Source: a virus. From it: a DNA stretch of 22,206 bases. Numbering within the stretch: the first letter of the stretch is position 1; each line of letters opens with the position of its first letter. The stretch covers positions 1-22,206 of the IMG/VR virus record IMGVR_UViG_3300050821_010980. The stretch is one strand, 5' to 3'. A program made the position numbers and the translations under genes. The notes below the pieces were generated by a model. The model was not told the DNA's origin. It saw only the letters and a list, made by a program, of their open reading frames with translations, and did not search any database. Positions 6,552 to 22,206 of the stretch are shown piece by piece.

Positions 6552-7001
6552 ATGGAGTTACGTCCGGCGCTGATGCCCGGCTGCGTGTTGTTGCCGTACG
6601 ACACCGCCGCCGGGCACTGCCGCGCGTGCGGCGAAAACCTGCCCAACGCCAACCGAACGTGGTGCAGTGTGGACTGCCGACTCATGTACGAACGTAACCA
6701 TTATTGGCGGGCCGCCAGGCATGCAGCCGCGGCGCGGGACGGATTCACATGCCTCAAATGTGGGTGGGGTGAAGGCGAATTCTACGAGCACGGTCAGATG
6801 GTGTTCTGGTCACGTCCGATGCTCACCGGCAGAGGACCCGACAACTGGATCGAAGTCAACCACATTGTGCCGAGGGCCGGCGAAGGGTACGGAACCGGGT
6901 GTGGACATCATCAATCGAACTTGGAAACATTGTGCCACCGGTGCCATGTAAAGGTCACGCGGATGCAGCGCGTGGCGCGCGCCCGCCGAAAGGCCGGTTG
7001 A
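6552..7001 (+). CDS. HNH homing-type endonuclease (149 aa)
   Basis: The C-terminal half is a beta-beta-alpha metal nuclease: EVNHIVPR at 101-108 supplies the first histidine, N123 follows, and ETLCHRCHVKVT at 125-136 supplies the last His. Two CxxC pairs (C67/C70 and C128/C131) make the structural zinc site of this subfamily. The N-terminus has another four-cysteine knuckle (C23, C26, C38, C42), probably for DNA binding. Free-standing HNH genes in phages act as homing endonucleases or help packaging; this one is about 9.7 kb from the terminase, so homing or accessory cleavage is more likely. It is flanked on both sides by CCCGGG-containing inverted repeats. No clear ribosome binding site precedes the ATG. 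Confidence 0.85.
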   Translation: MELRPALMPGCVLLPYDTAAGHCRACGENLPNANRTWCSVDCRLMYERNHYWRAARHAAAARDGFTCLKCGWGEGEFYEHGQMVFWSRPMLTGRGPDNWIEVNHIVPRAGEGYGTGCGHHQSNLETLCHRCHVKVTRMQRVARARRKAG

Positions 7002-9245: not shown

Positions 9246-9475
9246 CCAAGCACTGGTGCCCTGTTTGCTGGCGGCCCGTCGACCCAACACCTTCGAACAT
9301 GATTTTCGGGCACTTCGACAGGGCTAACAGCCCGTGCCCGGGCGCTTATGAGCCATTCTATATCACTTTAAAGCGTCCGAATGCCCCTAAAATAGGGTCA
9401 ACGGAACCCCGAAATTCGGCTATGAAAGCGGATTTTGGGCGTGTGTGGCGGCGAAAAAGGCGGTTTTCGGCGTGA
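9242..9475 (+). CDS. Zinc-knuckle protein, GTG start (77 aa)
   Basis: HWCPVCWRPV at the N-terminus gives a CxxC pair, followed by GHFD and a later SPCPG, together a zinc-ribbon-like site. The C-terminal 25 residues are strongly basic (VWRRKRRFSA), suggesting nucleic-acid contact. GTGA overlaps occur at both ends; it is coupled to the following glycosyltransferase. Confidence 0.65.
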   Translation: MTKHWCPVCWRPVDPTPSNMIFGHFDRANSPCPGAYEPFYITLKRPNAPKIGSTEPRNSAMKADFGRVWRRKRRFSA

Positions 9476-10155
9476 GTTTCTCAATAAAGGTGATCGCCCA
9501 TTCGCAGCGCGCAGAAATGGCTGAAAGGTTAGCAAAATCCGTCGGCGCGGACATTTGTTGGGACGCTCGAGAGGCCGAAAACCTCGGCACCAATGTTGGA
9601 TGCGCGTTAACACACCTGGATGCTCTAAAAAAATTCGCTTTCTCTGATTCTGAGTGGGTTGTTTGTTTAGAGGACGACGCCCAGCCGGTCGGCAACTTTG
9701 ATGTGCACCTGGCGGCGGCGCTGGAGTACGCTCCGGCACCGGTGGTTGGCCTGTATTTGGGCACCGGAAACCCTAGCGGGGAGGCTCAGCGGCAAATCCG
9801 GCAGGCTGTGGTGGCCGCGCAGGAAACCAACAAGGCATGGTTGATGGCCGACTGCCTTATCGGGTCAGTTGGGTATGCGGTGGAAACGCATCTGCTGCCC
9901 GATCTGATCGATTTCATCACCGACCGGGAAGAGGAGTTGCCGTTGCGGATTTCCCGGTGGGCGCAGGACCGCGGGATAAGCATTTGTTACACCGCCCCGT
10001 CGCTGGTGAACCACGACGACGGCGACAGCATCGGGTTGCCGTGGCGCGGCCCGAAACGCCTCCAACGCCGCGCCTGGTGGTGCGGAACCAGGTCTTCGTG
10101 GAACACCGGAACCGTCAAACTAGGATATTGCCCAGTCTGGAGTAAACCAAAGTGA
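9472..10155 (+). CDS. Glycosyltransferase, GT25-like (227 aa)
   Basis: Features typical of GT25/LPS-type transferases are present: an N-terminal strand ending in IAHSQR, NVGCALTHLDALKKF at 41-55 (the GxxxSH-like segment), and the acidic metal/nucleotide motif CLEDDAQP with E67, D68, D69. No membrane helix is seen. The GTG at 9472 is chosen because it overlaps the upstream stop by four bases; another GTG at 9445 would overlap it by 31. It is the second of three glycosyltransferases. Donor and acceptor are unknown. Confidence 0.8.
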   Translation: MSFSIKVIAHSQRAEMAERLAKSVGADICWDAREAENLGTNVGCALTHLDALKKFAFSDSEWVVCLEDDAQPVGNFDVHLAAALEYAPAPVVGLYLGTGNPSGEAQRQIRQAVVAAQETNKAWLMADCLIGSVGYAVETHLLPDLIDFITDREEELPLRISRWAQDRGISICYTAPSLVNHDDGDSIGLPWRGPKRLQRRAWWCGTRSSWNTGTVKLGYCPVWSKPK

Positions 10156-11925: not shown

Positions 11926-13055
11926 CGATCTACTTTCAGGACGAGTCGATCACCGTTTATCACGGTGATTGCCGCGACGTTCTACCGACGCTGCCCGATC
12001 AATCCGTCGACGCTATCTGCACCGACCCGCCGTATGAACTGAATTTTATGAACCGCGCCTGGGATGCAACTGGTGTTGCGTTCGACGTCGGGGTGTGGCG
12101 CGAATGCCTGCGCGTGCTGAAGCCGGGCGCACATTTGGTGGCGTTCGGAGGCACGCGGACCTGGCACCGGTTGGCGGTGGCGATCGAGGACTCAGGTTTT
12201 GAGATTCGCGACAATCTGGCGTGGCTGTACGGTTCAGGTTTCACAAAAAGCATGGATGTGTCTATGGCTATCGATAAGGCCGCCGGCGCGGAGCGCGAGG
12301 TTATCAGCGAACGCCGAAACCAGCCCACCTTCGACATAGATAAGCAAGCTGGGGGCGGCTGGGCCGGTGGGGTGATACGCAAAACGGCACCGGCCACCGA
12401 CGACGCTAAACGGTGGAACGGGTGGGGGACACATCTGAAGCCGTCATTCGAACCAATCGTGTTGGCGCGCAAACCGTTCCGAACATCAGTTGCGGATAAC
12501 GTGCTGAAGCACGGCACCGGGGCGATCCACATTGATGCCTGCCGGATCCCTGCCACCGATAGTCAGTTGGCGGAAAAGTATGCGAGTGTGCAGAACGCCG
12601 GACCGCGTGACAACAGTGTGTACGGCGGCGACGATCGGGACCGCGCCGGGGCCGAGCCGCACCCGGCGGGCAGGTTCCCGCCGAACGCGCTGCTAGATGC
12701 GCACACCGCCGTGGAGCTGGATGACCAGTCCTACAACGATGACGGCGGGGCTTCACGCTTCTTCCCCGTGTTCAAGTACACAGCGAAAGCGCCAACGTCT
12801 GAACGCCCAAACGTGGACGGAATGAAACACCCCACCGTCAAACCGCTGGAAGTCATGAAATGGCTGGTCAAGCTTGTGACCCCGCCGCACGGTGTGGTGC
12901 TGGACCCGTTCGCCGGCACAGGCACCACCGCCGAAGCGTGCATCCACGAACACAAACACGCCATCATGATCGAGAAAAAAGCGAGCTACCTGCCGCTGAT
13001 TAAAGCCCGGCTGGGTAAGCCGATGGAGATCGGATTCGACTTCGACGCGATCTGA
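11922..13055 (+). CDS. DNA methyltransferase, beta-class (N6-adenine or N4-cytosine)
   Basis: The order of motifs is that of beta-class amino-methyltransferases: catalytic motif IV (TDPPYEL, D35-P-P-Y38) near the N-terminus, a long central target-recognition region, and the AdoMet-binding motif I (LDPFAGTGTT at 327-336) near the C-terminus, preceded by HPTVKPLEVM. DPPY is more usual for adenine-N6 enzymes. No cognate restriction enzyme is adjacent, so it looks like an orphan methylase that may guard phage DNA. The GTG at 11922 overlaps the preceding stop by four bases. Its last 56 bases are antisense to the 3' end of the leftward gene at 13000-13641. Confidence 0.9.
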   Translation: MTIYFQDESITVYHGDCRDVLPTLPDQSVDAICTDPPYELNFMNRAWDATGVAFDVGVWRECLRVLKPGAHLVAFGGTRTWHRLAVAIEDSGFEIRDNLAWLYGSGFTKSMDVSMAIDKAAGAEREVISERRNQPTFDIDKQAGGGWAGGVIRKTAPATDDAKRWNGWGTHLKPSFEPIVLARKPFRTSVADNVLKHGTGAIHIDACRIPATDSQLAEKYASVQNAGPRDNSVYGGDDRDRAGAEPHPAGRFPPNALLDAHTAVELDDQSYNDDGGASRFFPVFKYTAKAPTSERPNVDGMKHPTVKPLEVMKWLVKLVTPPHGVVLDPFAGTGTTAEACIHEHKHAIMIEKKASYLPLIKARLGKPMEIGFDFDAI

Positions 13056-13641
13056 GGACCTCACGGTTCTCGGCCAGCATCAGTTTGAACTGTTCCGGTT
13101 CGGCGTGCACAGCGATGGTGCCGCGGTCCCACCACACGATCCTGGTCCGGTGGGCGTCGCTGGGGTATGCGGTGGCGGGTATCTGCGCGGCCACGACGCC
13201 TCCGGAGGATCGCCACTGCTCTAAGACGTGTTCCCCTGAGGTGGCCATGACGAACCGGACACCGAGCAGTGTCATCATGGGCAGCGCGGTGCGGGCCAGG
13301 GCCGCGGTCAGCGCCCGACTCTCGTGGTCTGTCCAGGCGGTTTTTGCTTCTACGACGCCGAAGGGGATCCGGTTGGCGATCATCTTGCGCAGCTCAGCGC
13401 GCCCCGGGTTGCCTGCCCATTCGTCAAGTGCGTGGGAATCCTCGGGTGAGCTTAGCGGACCGACGACGCGGGTGCCTCCTACCATCTGTCCGTCGGTCGC
13501 GGCGAAAAACAGCGCCGTGTCGGAGCCGTCCTCTATCGCGTCGAAATCCAGTACCCGCTCCAGCCCGTGCCTGCGGTAGCTGCGTCGCGCACCTTTGAGG
13601 TACTGATCCCACAGATCCGGCTCAGCGTGCGGGGTGGCCAC
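13000..13641 (-). CDS. GNAT/autoinducer-synthase-like acyltransferase
   Basis: The pattern ARRSYRRHG, then FDAIEDGSDTALFF, then GQMVGGTRVVGPL, then later FGVVEAKTAW and TLLGVRFVMATS resembles the acyltransferase fold shared by LuxI-type homoserine-lactone synthases, FeeM-like N-acyl amino acid synthases and related actinobacterial proteins (Y-R-x-x-x(G), D-x-x-E-x-D, GG-x-R). About 213 residues fits. It is the only leftward gene between two rightward blocks and ends antisense to the methyltransferase. The start is uncertain: GTG at 13641 has TTTAAT four bases upstream, as for a leaderless transcript; an in-frame GTG at 13746 is possible. The product and substrate are unknown. Confidence 0.55.
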   Translation of the reverse strand: MATPHAEPDLWDQYLKGARRSYRRHGLERVLDFDAIEDGSDTALFFAATDGQMVGGTRVVGPLSSPEDSHALDEWAGNPGRAELRKMIANRIPFGVVEAKTAWTDHESRALTAALARTALPMMTLLGVRFVMATSGEHVLEQWRSSGGVVAAQIPATAYPSDAHRTRIVWWDRGTIAVHAEPEQFKLMLAENREVLRSRRSRIRSPSAYPAGL

Positions 13642-13738
13642 GGTGATTAAACATCCGGTCGCCTGATCGCGCCAGCTGGTCTTTAGTGTTCGGCGTGCCG
13701 CGCATTGTGCACCGGAAAATGCAGGATTTACTACCGGT
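13642..13738. promoter_or_regulatory. Divergent intergenic region with possible -10 (TTTAAT)
   Basis: These 97 bases separate the leftward acyltransferase-like gene from the rightward microprotein. On the minus strand TTTAAT (plus-strand 13646-13651) lies four bases before the GTG start, close enough for leaderless initiation, common in actinomycetes. No matching -35 is visible. Confidence 0.35.
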
Positions 13739-13858
13739 ATGGACACCGACGGATTGCATGTTGACCTCGCCGGTTCAATGCGGCCAGCACTCCAATGCGC
13801 CGCGGCTACAGCATTCATATTCTTCCTCGGCCTTCTCATCGGAAGCTACCGGAAATGA
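13739..13858 (+). CDS. Single-pass membrane microprotein (39 aa)
   Basis: After a short polar N-terminus the last two-thirds is hydrophobic (ALQCAAATAFIFFLGLLI), ending SYRK. The stop overlaps the following ATG by four bases, which supports it. No strong ribosome binding site is seen. Function is unknown. Confidence 0.55.
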   Translation: MDTDGLHVDLAGSMRPALQCAAATAFIFFLGLLIGSYRK

Positions 13859-14103
13859 GGTGCCGCCACTGCGGGCACCAAGCCGAGCAGCACGACGATT
13901 CCGGAGCTTGCATTGTGCGCGTCCTAACAGGATGGAACGAAGACATAAAGTACTTTACCGGTGAACGTTTGTGCGGGTGTCAACAGTATTCTGGACGGTA
14001 TGAAGCAACCAGCGACGACACCGGCTGCCCGCACGAGGTGACACCGGATTCCACGCGCTGCGTGCATTGCGGTCGGACCGTCCTGAAGGAGAAGAATGAT
14101 TAA
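13855..14103 (+). CDS. Double zinc-knuckle protein (82 aa)
   Basis: The N-terminal module is CRHCGHQAEQHDD ... ERLCGCQQY and the C-terminal module is GCPH ... RCVHCGRT, giving two four-ligand metal sites. The first module (C-x-C-GH...HD...C-x-C) is also found in the 47-aa gene at 17261. The stop overlaps the start of the intein-containing glycosyltransferase by 8 bases. The role is unknown. Confidence 0.7.
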   Translation: MRCRHCGHQAEQHDDSGACIVRVLTGWNEDIKYFTGERLCGCQQYSGRYEATSDDTGCPHEVTPDSTRCVHCGRTVLKEKND

Positions 14104-15976
14104 AGCGACGGTGTGCATTCCGTGGAGGCCGTCGCCATCCAGGTTGAAGCCGTACGAGAAGGTCCGCCAATATTGGGCGGAAAATTTCCCGGACTGGGAA
14201 GTTGTCACCGCCGACTCTGACACTGAAATCTTCTCGTTGTCGCAGGCCCGGAACAACGCGTGCCGGCAGGCGACAACAGGCGTTGTTGTTTTCTGCGACG
14301 CCGACACCATCCCACCCACCGAAGGTGTGATCACCGCGGTCAACGACCCGGTAGGAATCACGTGGCCCCACAAAATTTGGCGACTCATCCCGCCGGAGTA
14401 CGCCGAAAAACCGTTCGAAGAATTCCCCGACGCGAGAATCTTGGTGGAACACCCCAACGGTTTGGGCGGGGTGATGGTGTGCACCACCGAAGAGTTCTGG
14501 CGTCTCGGCGGGCAGCCCGAAGAGTTCTGCGTCGATGACGAGACCGAAATCCTCACCGACCGGGGCTGGAAACGGCGCACAACGGTCGTTGCCGGCGACC
14601 TGGTGCTGACGCTGAACCATGCCACGGGGATGAGCGAATGGCAGCCTATTCAGAAAGTCAATATCTATCCAGGTGTCCGCGAGATGCTGCAGATCGAGAG
14701 CAAAACGCACTCCTCTCTGACAACGATGAACCACCGTTGGCCGGTCGAACGAACCTGGCTGGTAAACCAGGTCGGGAAAAAACAATTCCAACGCAGCCGC
14801 CGAGACTGGGCAACATCGGAGAAGTTCCAGCGGGAGGACTATGTGCCTATCGCCGCGCCCTGCGCCGACCTTCCCGTGGAACCAAAGTTCACAGACGGAC
14901 TCGTTGAGAGCGTGGCATGGTTTTACACCGAAGGCTGCATCTCGCGCTTGCAGAGTGGTTACGGACGATCTGTGACGATTTCCCAATCCCTCACAGCGAA
15001 CCCCGATCACTGTGACCGAATCCGGTCGGCGCTTACTCGAGCGTTCGGCCCTGCTTCTGAGATGTTCGTGCGCCGTTGCGGGCGTTCCGCGGCGCAACCT
15101 CCGCACTGGCGTGAACGGCAGCGTACCGGAATCGTTGAATTCTCCCTTAACGCCGAAGCTGGGGAGATACTTCAGCAACACGCACCGAACCGCGTCCCGT
15201 CGCATGAGTTCCTACTTTCGCTGACAAGAGCGCAACTGGAACTGTTCGTCCAGGCATCCATTTTCGCCGACGGTCATGAGCGCCCCCGTAACTATGAGCG
15301 TAATTTTTCGCAGAAGGACCCGGCGGCGGCAGAAGCTTTCCAGTTCGCCTGCATCCTCGCCGGCTACGCTACGTCTTCCGTCGCGCAACCCGTAATACCA
15401 AAATACGGCTACGGCATGACCTCAGTTTCGATCCGGCAGCAACGCCGGTTCAAGTTGTCAAAGGGCCGTCACGAGAGGGTCCTCCACACCGGAATTGTTT
15501 GGTGCCCAACAACCGAAAACGGAACGTGGCTGGCCCGCCGACACGGAAAGTCCTACTTTACCGGCAATTCCGGTTGGGGCCATGAGGACCGGGCTTTCCA
15601 CATGGTGGCGATGACTTTGTCCAGTTTCCGGCGCATCGGCGGTGTCGCCTACTCCATCGAACACAACGAGCGACTCCGGGTGGCGGACTCCCCCGAATGG
15701 CACCGCGACTCCAAACGCAACGAAGCACTGGTCAAACCGTACGAAATCGCGAACAACAAGCCGTGGCTGATGCGTGAGTTGCTGAAGATCCGCTACGAAG
15801 AACGCGAGGCGGGAGGCGACTGGCGTCAACGCGCCGGCCTGAACGAAACCGACCCGATCCGCCGTGAACTGTTCGGACCGAAACCTAGACCAGCGCCGCA
15901 GCAGCCCAAATCGGACTGGAAACAACGCTGGACGTCCACCGAAAACGACCCACTGGTCGGGCGATACAAGTCGTGA
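14096..15976 (+). CDS. Glycosyltransferase family 2 interrupted by an intein (626 aa precursor)
   Basis: Removing residues 145-491 leaves a 279-residue GT-A enzyme: VCIPWRPSPSRLKPY at the N-terminus, SLSQARNNACRQA (donor-binding helix) at 48-60, CDADTIPP (DxD metal site, D68-D70), and, directly after the insertion, GWGHEDRAF, the galactosyltransferase-like acceptor motif. Residue 144 is Phe and the first C-extein residue is Ser, the right nucleophile for splicing. The tail is rich in Arg/Lys and Trp. Until the intein splices, the active-site motif is separated from the donor half, so activity probably depends on splicing. Substrates are unknown. Confidence 0.85.
   Translation: MIKATVCIPWRPSPSRLKPYEKVRQYWAENFPDWEVVTADSDTEIFSLSQARNNACRQATTGVVVFCDADTIPPTEGVITAVNDPVGITWPHKIWRLIPPEYAEKPFEEFPDARILVEHPNGLGGVMVCTTEEFWRLGGQPEEFCVDDETEILTDRGWKRRTTVVAGDLVLTLNHATGMSEWQPIQKVNIYPGVREMLQIESKTHSSLTTMNHRWPVERTWLVNQVGKKQFQRSRRDWATSEKFQREDYVPIAAPCADLPVEPKFTDGLVESVAWFYTEGCISRLQSGYGRSVTISQSLTANPDHCDRIRSALTRAFGPASEMFVRRCGRSAAQPPHWRERQRTGIVEFSLNAEAGEILQQHAPNRVPSHEFLLSLTRAQLELFVQASIFADGHERPRNYERNFSQKDPAAAEAFQFACILAGYATSSVAQPVIPKYGYGMTSVSIRQQRRFKLSKGRHERVLHTGIVWCPTTENGTWLARRHGKSYFTGNSGWGHEDRAFHMVAMTLSSFRRIGGVAYSIEHNERLRVADSPEWHRDSKRNEALVKPYEIANNKPWLMRELLKIRYEEREAGGDWRQRAGLNETDPIRRELFGPKPRPAPQQPKSDWKQRWTSTENDPLVGRYKS
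14528..15568 (+). mobile_element. Intein with degenerate LAGLIDADG endonuclease in glycosyltransferase (347 aa)
   Basis: It starts with Cys145 and block A (CVDDETEILTDRGW), has block B TTMNH (T210, H213), and ends FTGN followed by extein Ser, so it is class 1. The penultimate residue is Gly where His is usual, a variant seen in some phage inteins. Two LAGLIDADG-like helices are present: SVAWFYTEG at 272-280 and LFVQASIFADG at 383-393. In the first, the catalytic acid is Glu rather than Asp; the second keeps ADG. The intein may have a weakened or lost endonuclease but a working splicing domain. Confidence 0.85.
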
Positions 15977-17264: not shown

Positions 17265-17404
17265 TCTGCGGCTGCGGCCACGAACTCGTCTTACACGACG
17301 AAGACGGGGTGTGCGTGGCGCTGATTATCACATTAAACACCTGGTCGCCTGGATGCGGCTGCCTCGAATTCCGGCAACAAACCGAGAAAGAAAAAGATAA
17401 GTGA
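17261..17404 (+). CDS. Zinc-knuckle microprotein between terminase genes (47 aa)
   Basis: GTGA overlaps on both sides (with TerS and with TerL) establish the frame. The module CGCGHELVLHDEDGVC ... CGCLEF has the same C-x-C-GH-x(n)-HD...C-x-C layout as the N-terminal module in the gene at 13855. The Lys-rich end (TEKEKDK) is polar. A role in packaging is possible from position only. Confidence 0.65.
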   Translation: MICGCGHELVLHDEDGVCVALIITLNTWSPGCGCLEFRQQTEKEKDK

Positions 17405-19155
17405 CTGCGATGTTGCAGCGAGAATTAACTCCCGGGATGGGGAGTATGTTGCCGCGGGTCTTCACGCCGCCGCTCGAGCACCACATCAACCCTCCGAAAG
17501 GAACATTAACCGCCCACGCGGTCGGCTACGGATCGGGACGCGATATGAGCGGAGGGTCCGGAGTCCGGGTTTATGACCCGGAAACAGAATGCTTATGCGG
17601 CTGCGGACTAACCCCGCAAACATCGTGGGGATTCGACGCCAACTCATTCTCCAAACACGTCCTCGGATGGAAACTCCTACCCTATCAGCAATGGCTCAAC
17701 ATTCACGCCCTGGAAAAAGACGACACCGACGGCGGGTTCCGTTTCAAAATTCTGGTCGTCCTCATCTCACGCCAGCAAGGGAAAACGTATTGGCTCAAAC
17801 AGCTGGGATTGTGGCGGCTGTTCGTCAACGCCCGCGGCAACGCTAACCGCGTCACCCCCGGCGCGAGATTAGCGTTGATCGCCGCGCAGAACCTGCAGTA
17901 CGCCGAAGGTGTGTTAAAAGACGTGGTAGACGAGATCCGTGACAGCTCGTCTCTATCTAAAGAGCTGATCAACCACCGCGTCACCAACGGTAACCACCGC
18001 GCAATCTTAACTAACCGCCGTTATTGGCGCGCAGCGACCGCTTCCCGTAAAGGAGGCCGGTCGCTGTCCGTCGATATCGCGATGCTCGATGAGTTACGTG
18101 AACACGTCACCACCGACGCGTGGGACGCCATCGCCCCCACCACCCTGGTGCGCCCATTCTCCCAAGTGGTGTGCACCAGCAACGCAGGCGACGTCCGCAG
18201 CATCGTTTTGAGGGACTTACGGGACGGAGCTATCCGCAATATAGAAGCCGGCGACACGCAGAGCACGCGTACAGGGTTATTCGAGTGGTCCGTGCCCGAT
18301 AATGTCGACCCGCGCGACGAAACATATTGGCACATGGCCAATCCCGCGCTCGGACATCTTAACAACTTCAAACTGTCAGACCTGCGTTCAATGTTCGAGT
18401 CGATGCAATACCGAAACCTTCCAGGATTTCAGACCGAGCACCTTTGTCAGTGGGTTGATGCGCTTAAACCCGGTATTCTTCCGGCTGAGCACTGGGCGCT
18501 CACCAAAGACACCGCGAGCCGCCGATCTTTGGGGGCGACGATTTACGCCGGCCTGGACGTCAACTACGAACGGTCCCGTGCGTTCGTCAGCATCGCCGCC
18601 CGCCGCGACGACGGCAACCTCCATGTTGAGGTGGTGCACGCCGCCCGCGGCACCGACTGGATAATCCCGTGGCTCAAACAACGCAAAGAAACGTGGCTGA
18701 CGGGAATAGCGGTGCAGAAAACCGGTGCCCCATCATCGGGGATGATCGAAGATTTGCGCCGCGCCGGAATTCCGGTAGTCGAATGGGGTCCAGGTATTGA
18801 AGTCTCTGGTGGTAGCGGCATGTTTTTCGACCAAATTGTTGAACACAAAATTTTTCACCGCCCCGCGCCGGTATTAGATCGGGCGGCGGCTTCCGGCGTG
18901 TCGCGCAATGTTGGAGAGGGCTGGGTGTTTGATCGTCGTAACAGCCCGGTTGATGTTTCGCCGCTAATTGCGTGCGTTGCAGCGGCCTGGCTGGCGAACC
19001 AGCCGGCTGCTAACCCGCCCGCCGTCCATTCCTGGCCGGACGACGACACCATGCGGGAATGGGAGCAGGAAGGCGCAGAGAAGTTCAAAGAGGGCCGCCC
19101 GCCCAACCGGTCGGCGCTAGACGAGATCGAAGGGATGTCCTGGTGGACCAGGTAA
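17401..19155 (+). CDS. terL: Terminase large subunit (584 aa)
   Basis: This is the ATPase/nuclease motor that packages DNA. An N-terminal CLCGCG element lies at 64-69. Walker A SRQQGKT at 123-129 is followed by the Walker B pair D230/E231 (VDIAMLDEL). The nuclease domain begins at the RNase H-like strand IYAGLDVN (381-388, catalytic D386), and the length is normal. The GTG at 17401 overlaps the preceding stop by four bases; an internal ATG at 17410 is an alternative. It matches the family used by HK97-type siphoviruses. No frameshift or intein is seen. Confidence 0.9.
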   Translation: MTAMLQRELTPGMGSMLPRVFTPPLEHHINPPKGTLTAHAVGYGSGRDMSGGSGVRVYDPETECLCGCGLTPQTSWGFDANSFSKHVLGWKLLPYQQWLNIHALEKDDTDGGFRFKILVVLISRQQGKTYWLKQLGLWRLFVNARGNANRVTPGARLALIAAQNLQYAEGVLKDVVDEIRDSSSLSKELINHRVTNGNHRAILTNRRYWRAATASRKGGRSLSVDIAMLDELREHVTTDAWDAIAPTTLVRPFSQVVCTSNAGDVRSIVLRDLRDGAIRNIEAGDTQSTRTGLFEWSVPDNVDPRDETYWHMANPALGHLNNFKLSDLRSMFESMQYRNLPGFQTEHLCQWVDALKPGILPAEHWALTKDTASRRSLGATIYAGLDVNYERSRAFVSIAARRDDGNLHVEVVHAARGTDWIIPWLKQRKETWLTGIAVQKTGAPSSGMIEDLRRAGIPVVEWGPGIEVSGGSGMFFDQIVEHKIFHRPAPVLDRAAASGVSRNVGEGWVFDRRNSPVDVSPLIACVAAAWLANQPAANPPAVHSWPDDDTMREWEQEGAEKFKEGRPPNRSALDEIEGMSWWTR

Positions 19156-19514: not shown

Positions 19515-19954
19515 AACCGGCTGATTCTGTTGTGTGCCGCAACGCCGAATACCGCCTAGAGGTTGATGGGCGTCCGTTTCCGTGGCATATCGATGAGCGG
19601 GGACCGAGGTTCACCCGCCTCCTGGACGATTTGTATCGGGTCGATCTCACCGTTTTGTGTGTGCGCCGCGACCGCAGCGACGACAGCGGATCGTACGAGA
19701 CGTTCGATGATTCGTTTTACGGCAGGCCGATAATCGCCGGGCTGCCATTTCCGTGGGAAATTACCAGCGAAGGTGTCTCCTATAACCGGTCGCGGACCAC
19801 GATAGCGACGGTTCGGTTGGCGTTTTTCGCCAAGGACGTCGACACCGACGGCGAAGTTTTCGATGTGCGCCGCCATGACCACACCATTCACGGGTTGAAC
19901 GGGGATCTTTATCACGAAAGCGCCCGCGACAAAGCGTTAGGGATTACCGCATGA
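19511..19954 (+). CDS. Internally duplicated hypothetical protein (147 aa)
   Basis: It contains two similar segments: residues 20-51 (GRPFPWHIDERG ... LYRVDLTVLC) and 77-107 (GLPFPWEITSEG ... IATVRLAFFA). Each has a PFPW core and an alternating hydrophobic strand. The ATG overlaps the preceding stop (ATGA) and the stop overlaps the portal start. Position between TerL and portal suggests a virion or assembly role, but no family is recognised. Confidence 0.7.
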   Translation: MKPADSVVCRNAEYRLEVDGRPFPWHIDERGPRFTRLLDDLYRVDLTVLCVRRDRSDDSGSYETFDDSFYGRPIIAGLPFPWEITSEGVSYNRSRTTIATVRLAFFAKDVDTDGEVFDVRRHDHTIHGLNGDLYHESARDKALGITA

Positions 19955-22206
19955 GTGTTCTTGGTAGGTTTTTGCAGCCTGGCGGCATGGAGCGTCGATC
20001 GTTGATGAGTTCCAGTTTCGTTCCGCCGCCCGCGGTCGGTGTTATTGACGACTTCGTTGGTGTGCACCGGGCGATGGCGCACATGACAGTTTTCGCGTGC
20101 GTACGTCTATTAGCGGACACGATCGCTTCGCTGCCATGGAAAGCGTACCGACGCGACTCCAAAGGCGTACCGAAAGAAGTTAGACAGCAACCGTCACTAA
20201 TAACAGAACCATATCCAGGTTTCGACCTATTCCAATGGAAATGGATGGTTGTGGCGAGTATGGCTTTGCGCGGCAATTCATACCATTATGTTTCGGAGCG
20301 AGATAAAGGTTTCGGGGTGCAATCAATTCTGCCACTGCACCCGGATATTGTGTTTTTGGAGCGCCGCCCCGACATTTTGATGTGGTTCGAGCCTATCTAC
20401 CGGATTATGGGTGAGCCCGTAGCTAAACGCGACATGGTTCATATGCGCCGGTTCACGATGCCGGGGGAACCATGGGGCATGTCACCGATTCGGCAGGCCG
20501 CGGTGGCTATCGGGCTGGGGTTGTCGGCTGAGGAGTACGGGTACCGGTTTTACAAGGAGTCTGCGACCCCGTCGGGAACGTTGGAAACCGACCAGGATGT
20601 GGACCAGAAGACGCTGGACCAGATTCAGCAGAACTGGATCCAGTCCCATGGTGGGCGCAGGTTGCCGGCGGTGTTGTCTCGAGGTTTCAAGTTTGAGCCC
20701 ATTTCTTTGCGGCCAGACGAGTCACAATTCCTCGAAACCAGGCAGTTCCAGCGTTCCGAGATTTGTTTGCTGTTCGGTGTGCCACCAATTCTGATTGGTG
20801 ACACTAAAGAGTGCGTTGTAGCAGGCACTATGATGACAATGGCGGATGGTTCACGCAAAGTCGTTGAGGATTTGCTAGTTGGCGATCTAGTTACCGCGTG
20901 GGACGGCTCCAAGCTTGTGGCCTCTCGCGTCTCTTGGGTTGGTACACCCCCCGTCAAACCGATCGTCAAGGTCACCACTGTCCGAGGACGGACCCTGACC
21001 TGCACGGCGGACCACCCCATCTTGGGCTTGAAGCGCCTACGCACTCCGGGTAACCGCCCGCTCCTAACGGACGGTGAATGGCTGCACGCAGGAGATCTTG
21101 AACCAGGCCATTATGTCCGTATCGGTTTAGGGCACTTGCCCGGCGAGGTTGGCCACCTGTCCGAAGACATCGGCTACTTCCTGGGTTCGATGGTCGGCGA
21201 CGGCCACATCAGGCTCACAAGTAAGCACCAGAGCCGCTGGGCCAACACCAATGAAGATGTCATCGCCCGCATGAGCGAGGTAGTGGAGTCGCTCGGAGGC
21301 CGTCTGGTTTATCGCGGAAACCGGACCTTTGACCTTCTGAACGCGGGCTACACCTCCGTCATCGGCGGCATCCTCCAACAGTCGGAACTCGTCGGCACCC
21401 ATGCCCATGACAAGTTCGTGCCGGACATGGTGATGACCGGCGGCCCGGAAGCGTGGAAAGGCTTCTTGTCCGGCTACTTCGACGCAGACGGCTGCATCTC
21501 CACCACGGCCAAACAGCCGCATGCTCACTTCGGCTCAGCCAGTCGAGAGCTGCTAGAGGGGTGCCAGCACCTCCTTGCGTTGCTGGGAATCAACTCATCG
21601 ATCTATTTGGCGACCAAGGCCCGGTATCGCTCAGTGCCAGGTGGTCGCATGGCCGTCTGCCGCGACGGATGGCAGTTGCGTATCAAAGGCCGCAGAGAAT
21701 TGGCCAAGCTAGCGCAGCTACTGGATATAACCCATCCCGAAAAACGGAACAAGCTGGCAAACCTTGCAACCACGCATGAAGGTGCATCGCCGAAACGGGA
21801 AGTCACATTTGAGTACGACCGCGTCAAGAGCGTAGAGCACATGGGACCCGGCCAGAGTGTGGGGATAGAGATCGAGCAAACCCATACCCATATCACGAAT
21901 GGCATTATTTCCCACAACACAACCGCGTGGGGTACTGGTGTCGAGCAGATAACTTTGGGTGCTGTGACGTATACGTTTAGGCCGTGGACTTCGTGTATCG
22001 AGTCGGTTATTTCTGGTTTGTTGCCGCGGGGCCAGTTTGTGCGGTTCGACTATAACAGCTTGCTGCGGGGTGACATGACGGGACGTTATAACGCTTTGCA
22101 GACCGCTATCCAGGGGACGTTTATGACGCCTAATGAGGCGCGTGCGTCTGAGGAAATGGATCCGGTGCCTAATGGTGACAATTTGTTGGTGCCGCCTAGC
22201 TACACG
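19951..22206 (+). CDS. Portal protein with intein, HK97-type (partial, runs off window)
   Basis: The N-extein (residues 1-287) has the portal hallmarks VHRAMAHMTVFACVRLLADT and SLPWKAYRRD, SMALRGNSYHYV and the MSPIRQAAVAIGLGL segment, then FGVPPILIGDTKE. After the intein the C-extein resumes at TTAWGTGVEQITLGAVTYTF and ends near MTPNEARASEEMDPVPN, as in HK97-like portals. Removing the intein joins E287 to T657 in a place that is normally continuous. The gene is open at the window end, so the 3' end is missing. Codons in the exteins favour TTG and GGT, unlike the intein. The ATG overlaps the preceding stop by four bases. Confidence 0.9.
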   Translation, partial: MSVLGRFLQPGGMERRSLMSSSFVPPPAVGVIDDFVGVHRAMAHMTVFACVRLLADTIASLPWKAYRRDSKGVPKEVRQQPSLITEPYPGFDLFQWKWMVVASMALRGNSYHYVSERDKGFGVQSILPLHPDIVFLERRPDILMWFEPIYRIMGEPVAKRDMVHMRRFTMPGEPWGMSPIRQAAVAIGLGLSAEEYGYRFYKESATPSGTLETDQDVDQKTLDQIQQNWIQSHGGRRLPAVLSRGFKFEPISLRPDESQFLETRQFQRSEICLLFGVPPILIGDTKECVVAGTMMTMADGSRKVVEDLLVGDLVTAWDGSKLVASRVSWVGTPPVKPIVKVTTVRGRTLTCTADHPILGLKRLRTPGNRPLLTDGEWLHAGDLEPGHYVRIGLGHLPGEVGHLSEDIGYFLGSMVGDGHIRLTSKHQSRWANTNEDVIARMSEVVESLGGRLVYRGNRTFDLLNAGYTSVIGGILQQSELVGTHAHDKFVPDMVMTGGPEAWKGFLSGYFDADGCISTTAKQPHAHFGSASRELLEGCQHLLALLGINSSIYLATKARYRSVPGGRMAVCRDGWQLRIKGRRELAKLAQLLDITHPEKRNKLANLATTHEGASPKREVTFEYDRVKSVEHMGPGQSVGIEIEQTHTHITNGIISHNTTAWGTGVEQITLGAVTYTFRPWTSCIESVISGLLPRGQFVRFDYNSLLRGDMTGRYNALQTAIQGTFMTPNEARASEEMDPVPNGDNLLVPPSYT
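20812..21918 (+). mobile_element. Intein with intact LAGLIDADG endonuclease in portal (369 aa)
   Basis: It spans residues 288-656 of the precursor. Cys288 begins block A (CVVAGTMMTMADGSRKV), block B is LTCTADHP with T352 and H355, and the end is NGIISHN followed by extein Thr657, with the usual His-Asn pair. The endonuclease has two complete motifs: YFLGSMVGDGH (409-419, acidic D417) and FLSGYFDADGC (505-515, acidic D511/D513). This suggests an active homing enzyme. Base and codon use in the middle is richer in GC than the exteins, consistent with recent arrival. Confidence 0.9.

Follow-up and report, generated by a model that had tools for sequence, protein, structure and literature searches.

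The gene described here lies in a 22,206-base virus record, the whole of which is called the window below and which is probably a fragment of a virus genome. The ORF 14096-15976 (+) runs for 626 codons without a stop and encodes a precursor of 626 amino acids; it is preceded by an AAGGAG-like ribosome-binding sequence 5' of the ATG, and each of the other two forward frames is interrupted by 19 stops over the same interval. The precursor combines the N-extein of a glycosyltransferase (residues 1-144, 14096-14527 (+), delimited by translation and by PF00535/PF10111 matches), an intein of 347 amino acids (residues 145-491, 14528-15568 (+), Cys1 to Asn347, delimited by alignment, structure model and splice ends) and the C-extein (residues 492-626 and the stop, 15569-15976 (+), with a PF02709 match spanning the junction). 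The intein begins with the letters CVDDETEILT, of which Cys1 is residue 145 (14528-14530), and ends with SYFTGN, of which the terminal Asn is residue 491 (15566-15568); the translation then continues with SGWGHED from Ser492, the +1 Ser being encoded by 15569-15571 and GWGHED by 15572-15589 (+). These limits coincide to the base with those of a sequence-only reading of the window, which had placed an intein after Phe144 and before Ser-Gly-Trp-Gly-His-Glu-Asp, and the removal of residues 145-491 in silico reproduces its joined extein of 279 amino acids. That reading also held that the intein splits the GWGxED motif: the intein does adjoin the motif, but the break falls one residue upstream, this residue being the +1 residue, and the motif itself is left whole. 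Two antisense ORFs, one overlapping the intein gene (13955-15205 (-), 416 amino acids) and one beside it (13000-13839 (-), 279 amino acids, without a family match in Pfam or PHROGs), are probably spurious.

Within the intein, the N-terminal part of the Hint fold with blocks A and B (14528-14839 (+), from the alignment, with an approximate boundary taken from the secondary structure of the model) is followed by a LAGLIDADG homing-endonuclease domain (14840-15409 (+), from alignment and model, its boundary likewise approximate) and by the C-terminal part of the Hint fold with blocks F and G (15410-15568 (+), from the alignment). The end-to-end alignment of the window intein with 48 homologues (49 rows) locates, all on the + strand, Cys1 (14528-14530), Thr B:7 (14723-14725), His B:10 (14732-14734), Trp B:12 (14738-14740), Cys F:4 (15503-15505), Thr G:5 (15560-15562), Gly G:6 (15563-15565) and Asn G:7 (15566-15568). 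Cys1, His69 (B:10), Cys326 (F:4) and Asn347 are invariant in all 49 inteins, and Thr66 (B:7) and Thr345 (G:5) are each present in 48. The features by which an intein is recognized are found together: Cys1, Thr66-x-x-His69, Asn347 and Ser at +1, two LAGLIDADG helices with the acidic ends Glu135 (14930-14932 (+)) and Asp248 (15269-15271 (+)), whose catalytic positions come from alignment and model, and a precise empty site in homologous alleles. The structure model (pLDDT 95.6) has as its best PDB matches the full-length LAGLIDADG inteins TliVMA, PhoVMA, PI-SceI and PI-PfuI, and its endonuclease part also matches I-DmoI. By itself the window intein gave no match in Pfam (none at threshold), PHROGs or NCBIfam, and it was therefore identified by its alignment, its model and its splice ends. 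Judged from these, residues 145-491 are a real and intact-looking LAGLIDADG intein of a large phage family, whose hosts include an amidase, DnaB, portal proteins, a PD-(D/E)XK nuclease, Ro60/TROVE, a prohead protease, a tail tube protein and a DNA methylase. The closest isolates by intein sequence, at about 43%, are Pinkcreek gp135 and the portal proteins of Gordonia phages Woes and Hail2Pitt, and the GMA3 TerL intein is about 40% identical. Relatives of the intein were also seen within a phage Ro60/TROVE-vWA protein (L024:4519-7233) and a phage N-acetylmuramoyl-L-alanine amidase (L009:2012-3991).

The nature of the host enzyme appears once the two exteins are joined. The Pfam family PF02709 (Glyco_transf_7C), whose cut-off is 23 bits, scores 13.8 bits (E 0.045) with the interrupted protein and 31.4 bits (E 1.5e-7) with the joined extein, the threshold being passed only after joining and the match running across the junction; an intein-free relative, on contig L005, scores 36.3 bits and matches the galactosyl transferase family phrog_1721 (E 8e-34). 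The profile aligns the transferase to beta-1,4-galactosyltransferase 7 (B4GALT7) as GMSNRFWGWGRED, over GGQPEEF-x-GWG-x-ED. The model of the transferase (pLDDT 84) finds B4GALT1 and the K4 chondroitin polymerase (K4CP) as its best Foldseek matches, with B4GALT7 also near, at TM-scores of about 0.5 that leave the exact GT family unfixed. Together with a DxD-type DADT motif and GWGHED, the predicted fold places the protein in the GT-A group, and on motifs and model the host is an enzyme of the galactosyltransferase (GWGxED) type, which may transfer galactose. The rise of the PF02709 score on joining and the fold matches bear out the GWGxED-type glycosyltransferase host named by the sequence-only reading, which had suggested a family search with the 279-residue extein. 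A second glycosyltransferase gene lies upstream in the window (9445-10155; PHROG 854 glucosyltransferase, E 1e-52). On six other contigs (L082, L083, L086, L089, L090 and L093) the transferase stands behind a SAM-methyltransferase-like segment, which reads DVGCGxGTW in most of them, within one long ORF.

Alleles without the intein are common. Three contigs (L004, L005 and L006) which are syntenic with the window carry the same gene without the insertion, their transferase being 72% identical, and the comparison of the window with L005 leaves no gap at the junction in either protein or DNA (68% DNA identity over 795 bp). We aligned 12 distinct intein-free relatives, to which the empty alleles of the subfamily of contig L099 are added, and the distinct empty alleles number about 25; distant intein-free relatives occur in isolated Gordonia, Mycobacterium and Tunturiibacter phages. 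Intein-free homologues thus do align across the 144/492 junction, a point on which the intein assignment made from the letters of the window depended.

The same insertion was found at the identical codon in four genes: that of the window and those of contigs L007/L008 (58 kb), L094 (87 kb) and L099 (104 kb). When the 2.9 million contigs of IMG/VR, the window's own record excluded, were scanned with the pattern TTY-ACN-GGN-AAY-NNN-GGN-TGG-GG, in-frame intein ends fused to xGWG came up only in these three other contigs, so that the filled alleles number four and all come from metagenomic contigs. The inteins resemble each other more than the enzymes which carry them. Between the window and L007 the identity is 64% for the intein and 51% for the extein, between the window and L094 66% and 53%, and between the window and L099 60% and 34% (30% by BLASTP), the L099 transferase being akin to the enzyme of a phage that infects the acidobacterium Tunturiibacter. 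The four glycosyltransferase inteins form one clade with a support of 100/100 in a tree built from 62 inteins. The filled alleles do not group in the tree of the 29 transferases, where each is a tip of its own: 0% of the bootstraps unite them, and the supported branches force four changes. One intein clade set against four extein changes points to an intein lineage whose apparent homing target is the codon before GWGxED, and repeated homing by this lineage, not descent with the gene, is apparently the economical reading of the two trees. The third-position GC of the intein is below that of its flanking exteins in all four filled genes (0.67 versus 0.75-0.76; 0.69 versus 0.85-0.94; 0.78 versus 0.85-0.92; 0.45 versus 0.68-0.70), as would fit a newcomer. 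Within the window's own subfamily, one old gain followed by several losses could alternatively account for the three filled alleles, and the argument for transfer relies mainly on L099.

The residue at +1 largely separates filled from empty alleles. The four filled alleles read Ser, Cys, Cys and Ser. Most empty alleles of the window's subfamily have Ile, and Val, Glu and Cys each occur in a single one; Arg occupies the position in all the empty L099-subfamily alleles found and in Tunturi_5. Splicing requires Cys, Ser or Thr at +1, and an invader must therefore either bring the +1 codon with it through co-conversion or invade only the rare alleles that are permissive. The sole empty allele of the permissive kind is the intein-free transferase L089:2562-3269, in which Cys stands at +1 (PPEF-C-GWGWED) and which is possibly the scar of an intein loss or a pre-adapted target. 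The distribution of residues suggests that the splicing nucleophile probably arrives together with the intein, co-conversion being the presumed route. A comparable situation has been described for the haloarchaeal MCM-d intein, whose empty sites mostly have Pro at +1 and whose occupied sites have Ser, and for which the authors infer co-conversion during homing (PMC10643990). In both systems most empty sites code for a non-splicing +1 residue; the MCM-d host is an archaeal helicase, whereas here Arg, Ile, Val or Glu is opposed to Ser or Cys across two divergent glycosyltransferase subfamilies.

The model we propose, and which we hold to be very likely from the comparison of sequences, is that of a mobile LAGLIDADG intein which occupies the codon before GWGxED, excises itself from the precursor, homes into empty alleles and co-converts the +1 residue. 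At the protein level, the cyclisation of Asn347, with Ser492 as acceptor nucleophile, would release the intein and join Phe144 to Ser492 to generate the enzyme of 279 amino acids. The precursor would be inactive before this event, since the GWGxED motif is detached from the rest of the enzyme. At the DNA level, the endonuclease would make its cut in intein-free alleles, across the conserved TTY-NNN-GGN-TGG-GGN stretch, and the repair of the break would copy in the intein together with flanking DNA, whereby the +1 codon would become Ser or Cys. Splicing, co-conversion and the inactivity of the precursor are steps that we infer, as is DNA cleavage, which is deduced from the distribution of the filled and empty alleles.

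Three other explanations have to be weighed against this mobile intein. That the insertion is no intein at all but an inserted domain or an artefact of assembly or annotation might be imagined for a metagenomic fragment known from its DNA alone; the empty site without a gap, the identical insertion in four separate contigs, the invariant splicing residues at both ends and the predicted Hint and LAGLIDADG folds leave this a negligible chance, and the empty-site and same-site comparisons rule it out in practice. A splicing intein with a dead or dying endonuclease, inherited vertically and now in the degeneration phase of the homing cycle, is a more serious but still unlikely candidate. The endonuclease part is indeed somewhat less conserved than the Hint part (60% versus 68% between the window and L007, 62% versus 70% between the window and L094), and the nearest transferase relative, that of L005 (72%), is empty while more distant ones are filled, which is compatible with a past loss. 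The endonuclease part nevertheless contains neither a stop nor a change of frame, its model keeps the two-lobed LAGLIDADG fold with matches to PI-SceI, PI-PfuI and I-DmoI, and the occurrence of the same site in a transferase that is 30% identical is hard to reach by descent alone. The dN is about 0.3 with a dS near saturation; the dN/dS is therefore rough and can be trusted for the direction of selection only. The sequence-only reading had proposed that the homing function was decaying, on account of a weakened LAGLIDADG motif and of the Gly-Asn end, and neither argument is supported. Of the 49 family members, 44 have Glu at the acid position of the first helix and 47 have Asp at that of the second, so that Glu135 (TEG) and Asp248 (ADG) of the window represent the family norm; the penultimate Gly is found in 47/49 and concerns splicing and not homing, and a mycobacteriophage RDF intein with a native penultimate Gly splices completely, its Gly-to-His replacement slowing the reaction (PMC5050341). 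With both acids kept, a Gly-Asn end common to the family and a two-lobed fold in the model, we reject decay as unsupported; the presence of the intein in four phages, in conflict with the extein tree, argues for active homing in the lineage, and the homing function has probably not decayed.

The last explanation concerns splicing itself. The window intein contains the class 3 triad, W71 (Trp B:12), C326 (Cys F:4) and T345 (Thr G:5), with His-x-Trp in block B and a spacing of 21 from Cys F:4 to the terminal Asn, and 41 of the 49 family members combine Cys1 with the full triad. Class 3 inteins lack Cys, Ser or Thr at position 1, whereas Cys1 is present here in 49/49, for which reason the intein is not filed as class 3 but given a mixed signature only. 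Mixed-motif inteins were reportedly tested by Tori and Perler in 2011, with the block F Cys found to be essential. The triad and the spacing recall the class 3 and mixed-motif inteins, among them Mycobacteriophage Catera Gp206, which belongs to the class 3 inteins that splice (PMC3196547), and its relatives, and the Msm and Mle DnaB class 3 inteins, whose spacing is likewise 21 (PMC5222942); the invariant Cys1, where the usual definition is the lack of Cys1 or Ser1, and the penultimate Gly in place of His set the present family apart. It is conceivable, though we give it little weight, that members with Cys1, triad and Gly-Asn start splicing with either Cys, as intermediates between class 1 and class 3, and that in a glycosyltransferase, where additional thiols would lie next to the active-site motif, redox-dependent splicing might time a change of the surface glycans; a transition from class 1 to class 3 by simple mutation has been argued to be implausible (PMC7664689). 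More doubtful still is the idea that the gene keeps its intein as a post-translational switch, whose conditional splicing, in response to redox, stress or late infection, would time surface-glycan modification. An insertion directly at GWGxED would block the activity of the precursor, redox could be sensed by two or three reactive Cys (Cys1, Cys F:4 and, in two alleles, Cys+1), and two publications report conditional splicing of other inteins (PMC6195587, PMC8557812). Against such a switch, the many empty alleles indicate an enzyme that does not need it, and a site beside an active-site motif follows a general rule of inteins (PMC5050341) that is explained by target conservation.

The mobile intein proposed here takes phage inteins beyond nucleic-acid proteins, to a sugar-transfer enzyme as host. 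The 13 host groups of the mycobacteriophage inteins all bind nucleic acid, none is a glycosyltransferase, and their inteins lie beside conserved motifs (PMC5050341), in agreement with the earlier remark that a glycosyltransferase host is unusual. The accompanying view, that DNA-handling proteins or terminases host most phage inteins, is correct for this published set; the present family also occupies amidase, tail tube, portal, prohead protease and Ro60/TROVE genes. The window intein shares with the actinobacteriophage LAGLIDADG inteins (in TerL, portal, RDF, TOPRIM, DNA methylases, nucleotidyltransferase and others; PMC5050341) the combination of Hint and homing endonuclease, the proximity to a conserved catalytic motif, the existence of empty alleles and, with some such as RDF, the penultimate Gly, and it differs from them by a host which transfers sugar and is not a nucleic-acid-binding protein. 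Our literature search on inteins and glycosyltransferases, which covered mainly open-access papers, found no phage case. Chitin synthase is a GT2 enzyme. Inteins of fungal chitin synthase (CHS), of which four cases are known in nuclear genes of Pezizomycotina, are hosted by a glycosyltransferase as well (PMC5784728), but they interrupt a processive membrane enzyme, whereas the present host is small, encoded by a phage and of the GWGxED type.

Among 50,697 records of isolated phages, none has a match that covers 80% of the filled gene, and megablast with the whole window gave no close isolate. The plasmid search returned just relatives of 25-30% on Streptomyces replicons and one short partial match, and the one relative detected in the scan of bacterial genomes lies within a portal-like gene of Gordonia asplenii and not in a glycosyltransferase. 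Two matches that seemed relevant were discarded: LR756508, which seemed to span extein and intein (65-494), is a DNA methylase with an intein of its own, and the Pinkcreek match covering 129-492 belongs to a DUF7297 protein encoded in the baseplate region and not to a glycosyltransferase. The glycosyltransferase is apparently a new kind of phage host gene for an intein that looks intact and mobile and that recurs at one active-site codon, a single lineage reaching this codon in the transferases of distantly related phages. The four filled and about 25 distinct empty alleles constitute a natural set in which the +1 splicing residue is missing from most uninvaded genes, and which makes both the co-conversion of +1 and the respective roles of Cys1 and Cys F:4 directly testable.

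Other mobile elements accompany the glycosyltransferase intein, and related phages differ sharply in which of their genes carry inteins. The portal-protein gene of the window (ORF 19951-22206, open at the window end) contains a second intein of 369 amino acids (20812-21918 (+); CVVAG...ISHN|T, class 1 signature, LAGLIDADG_3), which is of a different type from the glycosyltransferase intein and whose site is likewise filled in L005. The large terminase subunit has no intein in the window (17401-19155), one in L005 (11517-14234) and two in L007 (4107-7778); the L005 terminase intein, with Ala as its first residue and with the triad, looks like a class 3 intein and matches the class 3 MchDnaB1 structures, among them 6rix (PMC7664689). 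A free-standing HNH endonuclease-like gene is found at 6552-7001 of the window (PHROG 144, E 3e-10), and a second gene of the L099 phage, near 70 kb of the same contig (L163:566-2434), contains a distant intein-like insertion.
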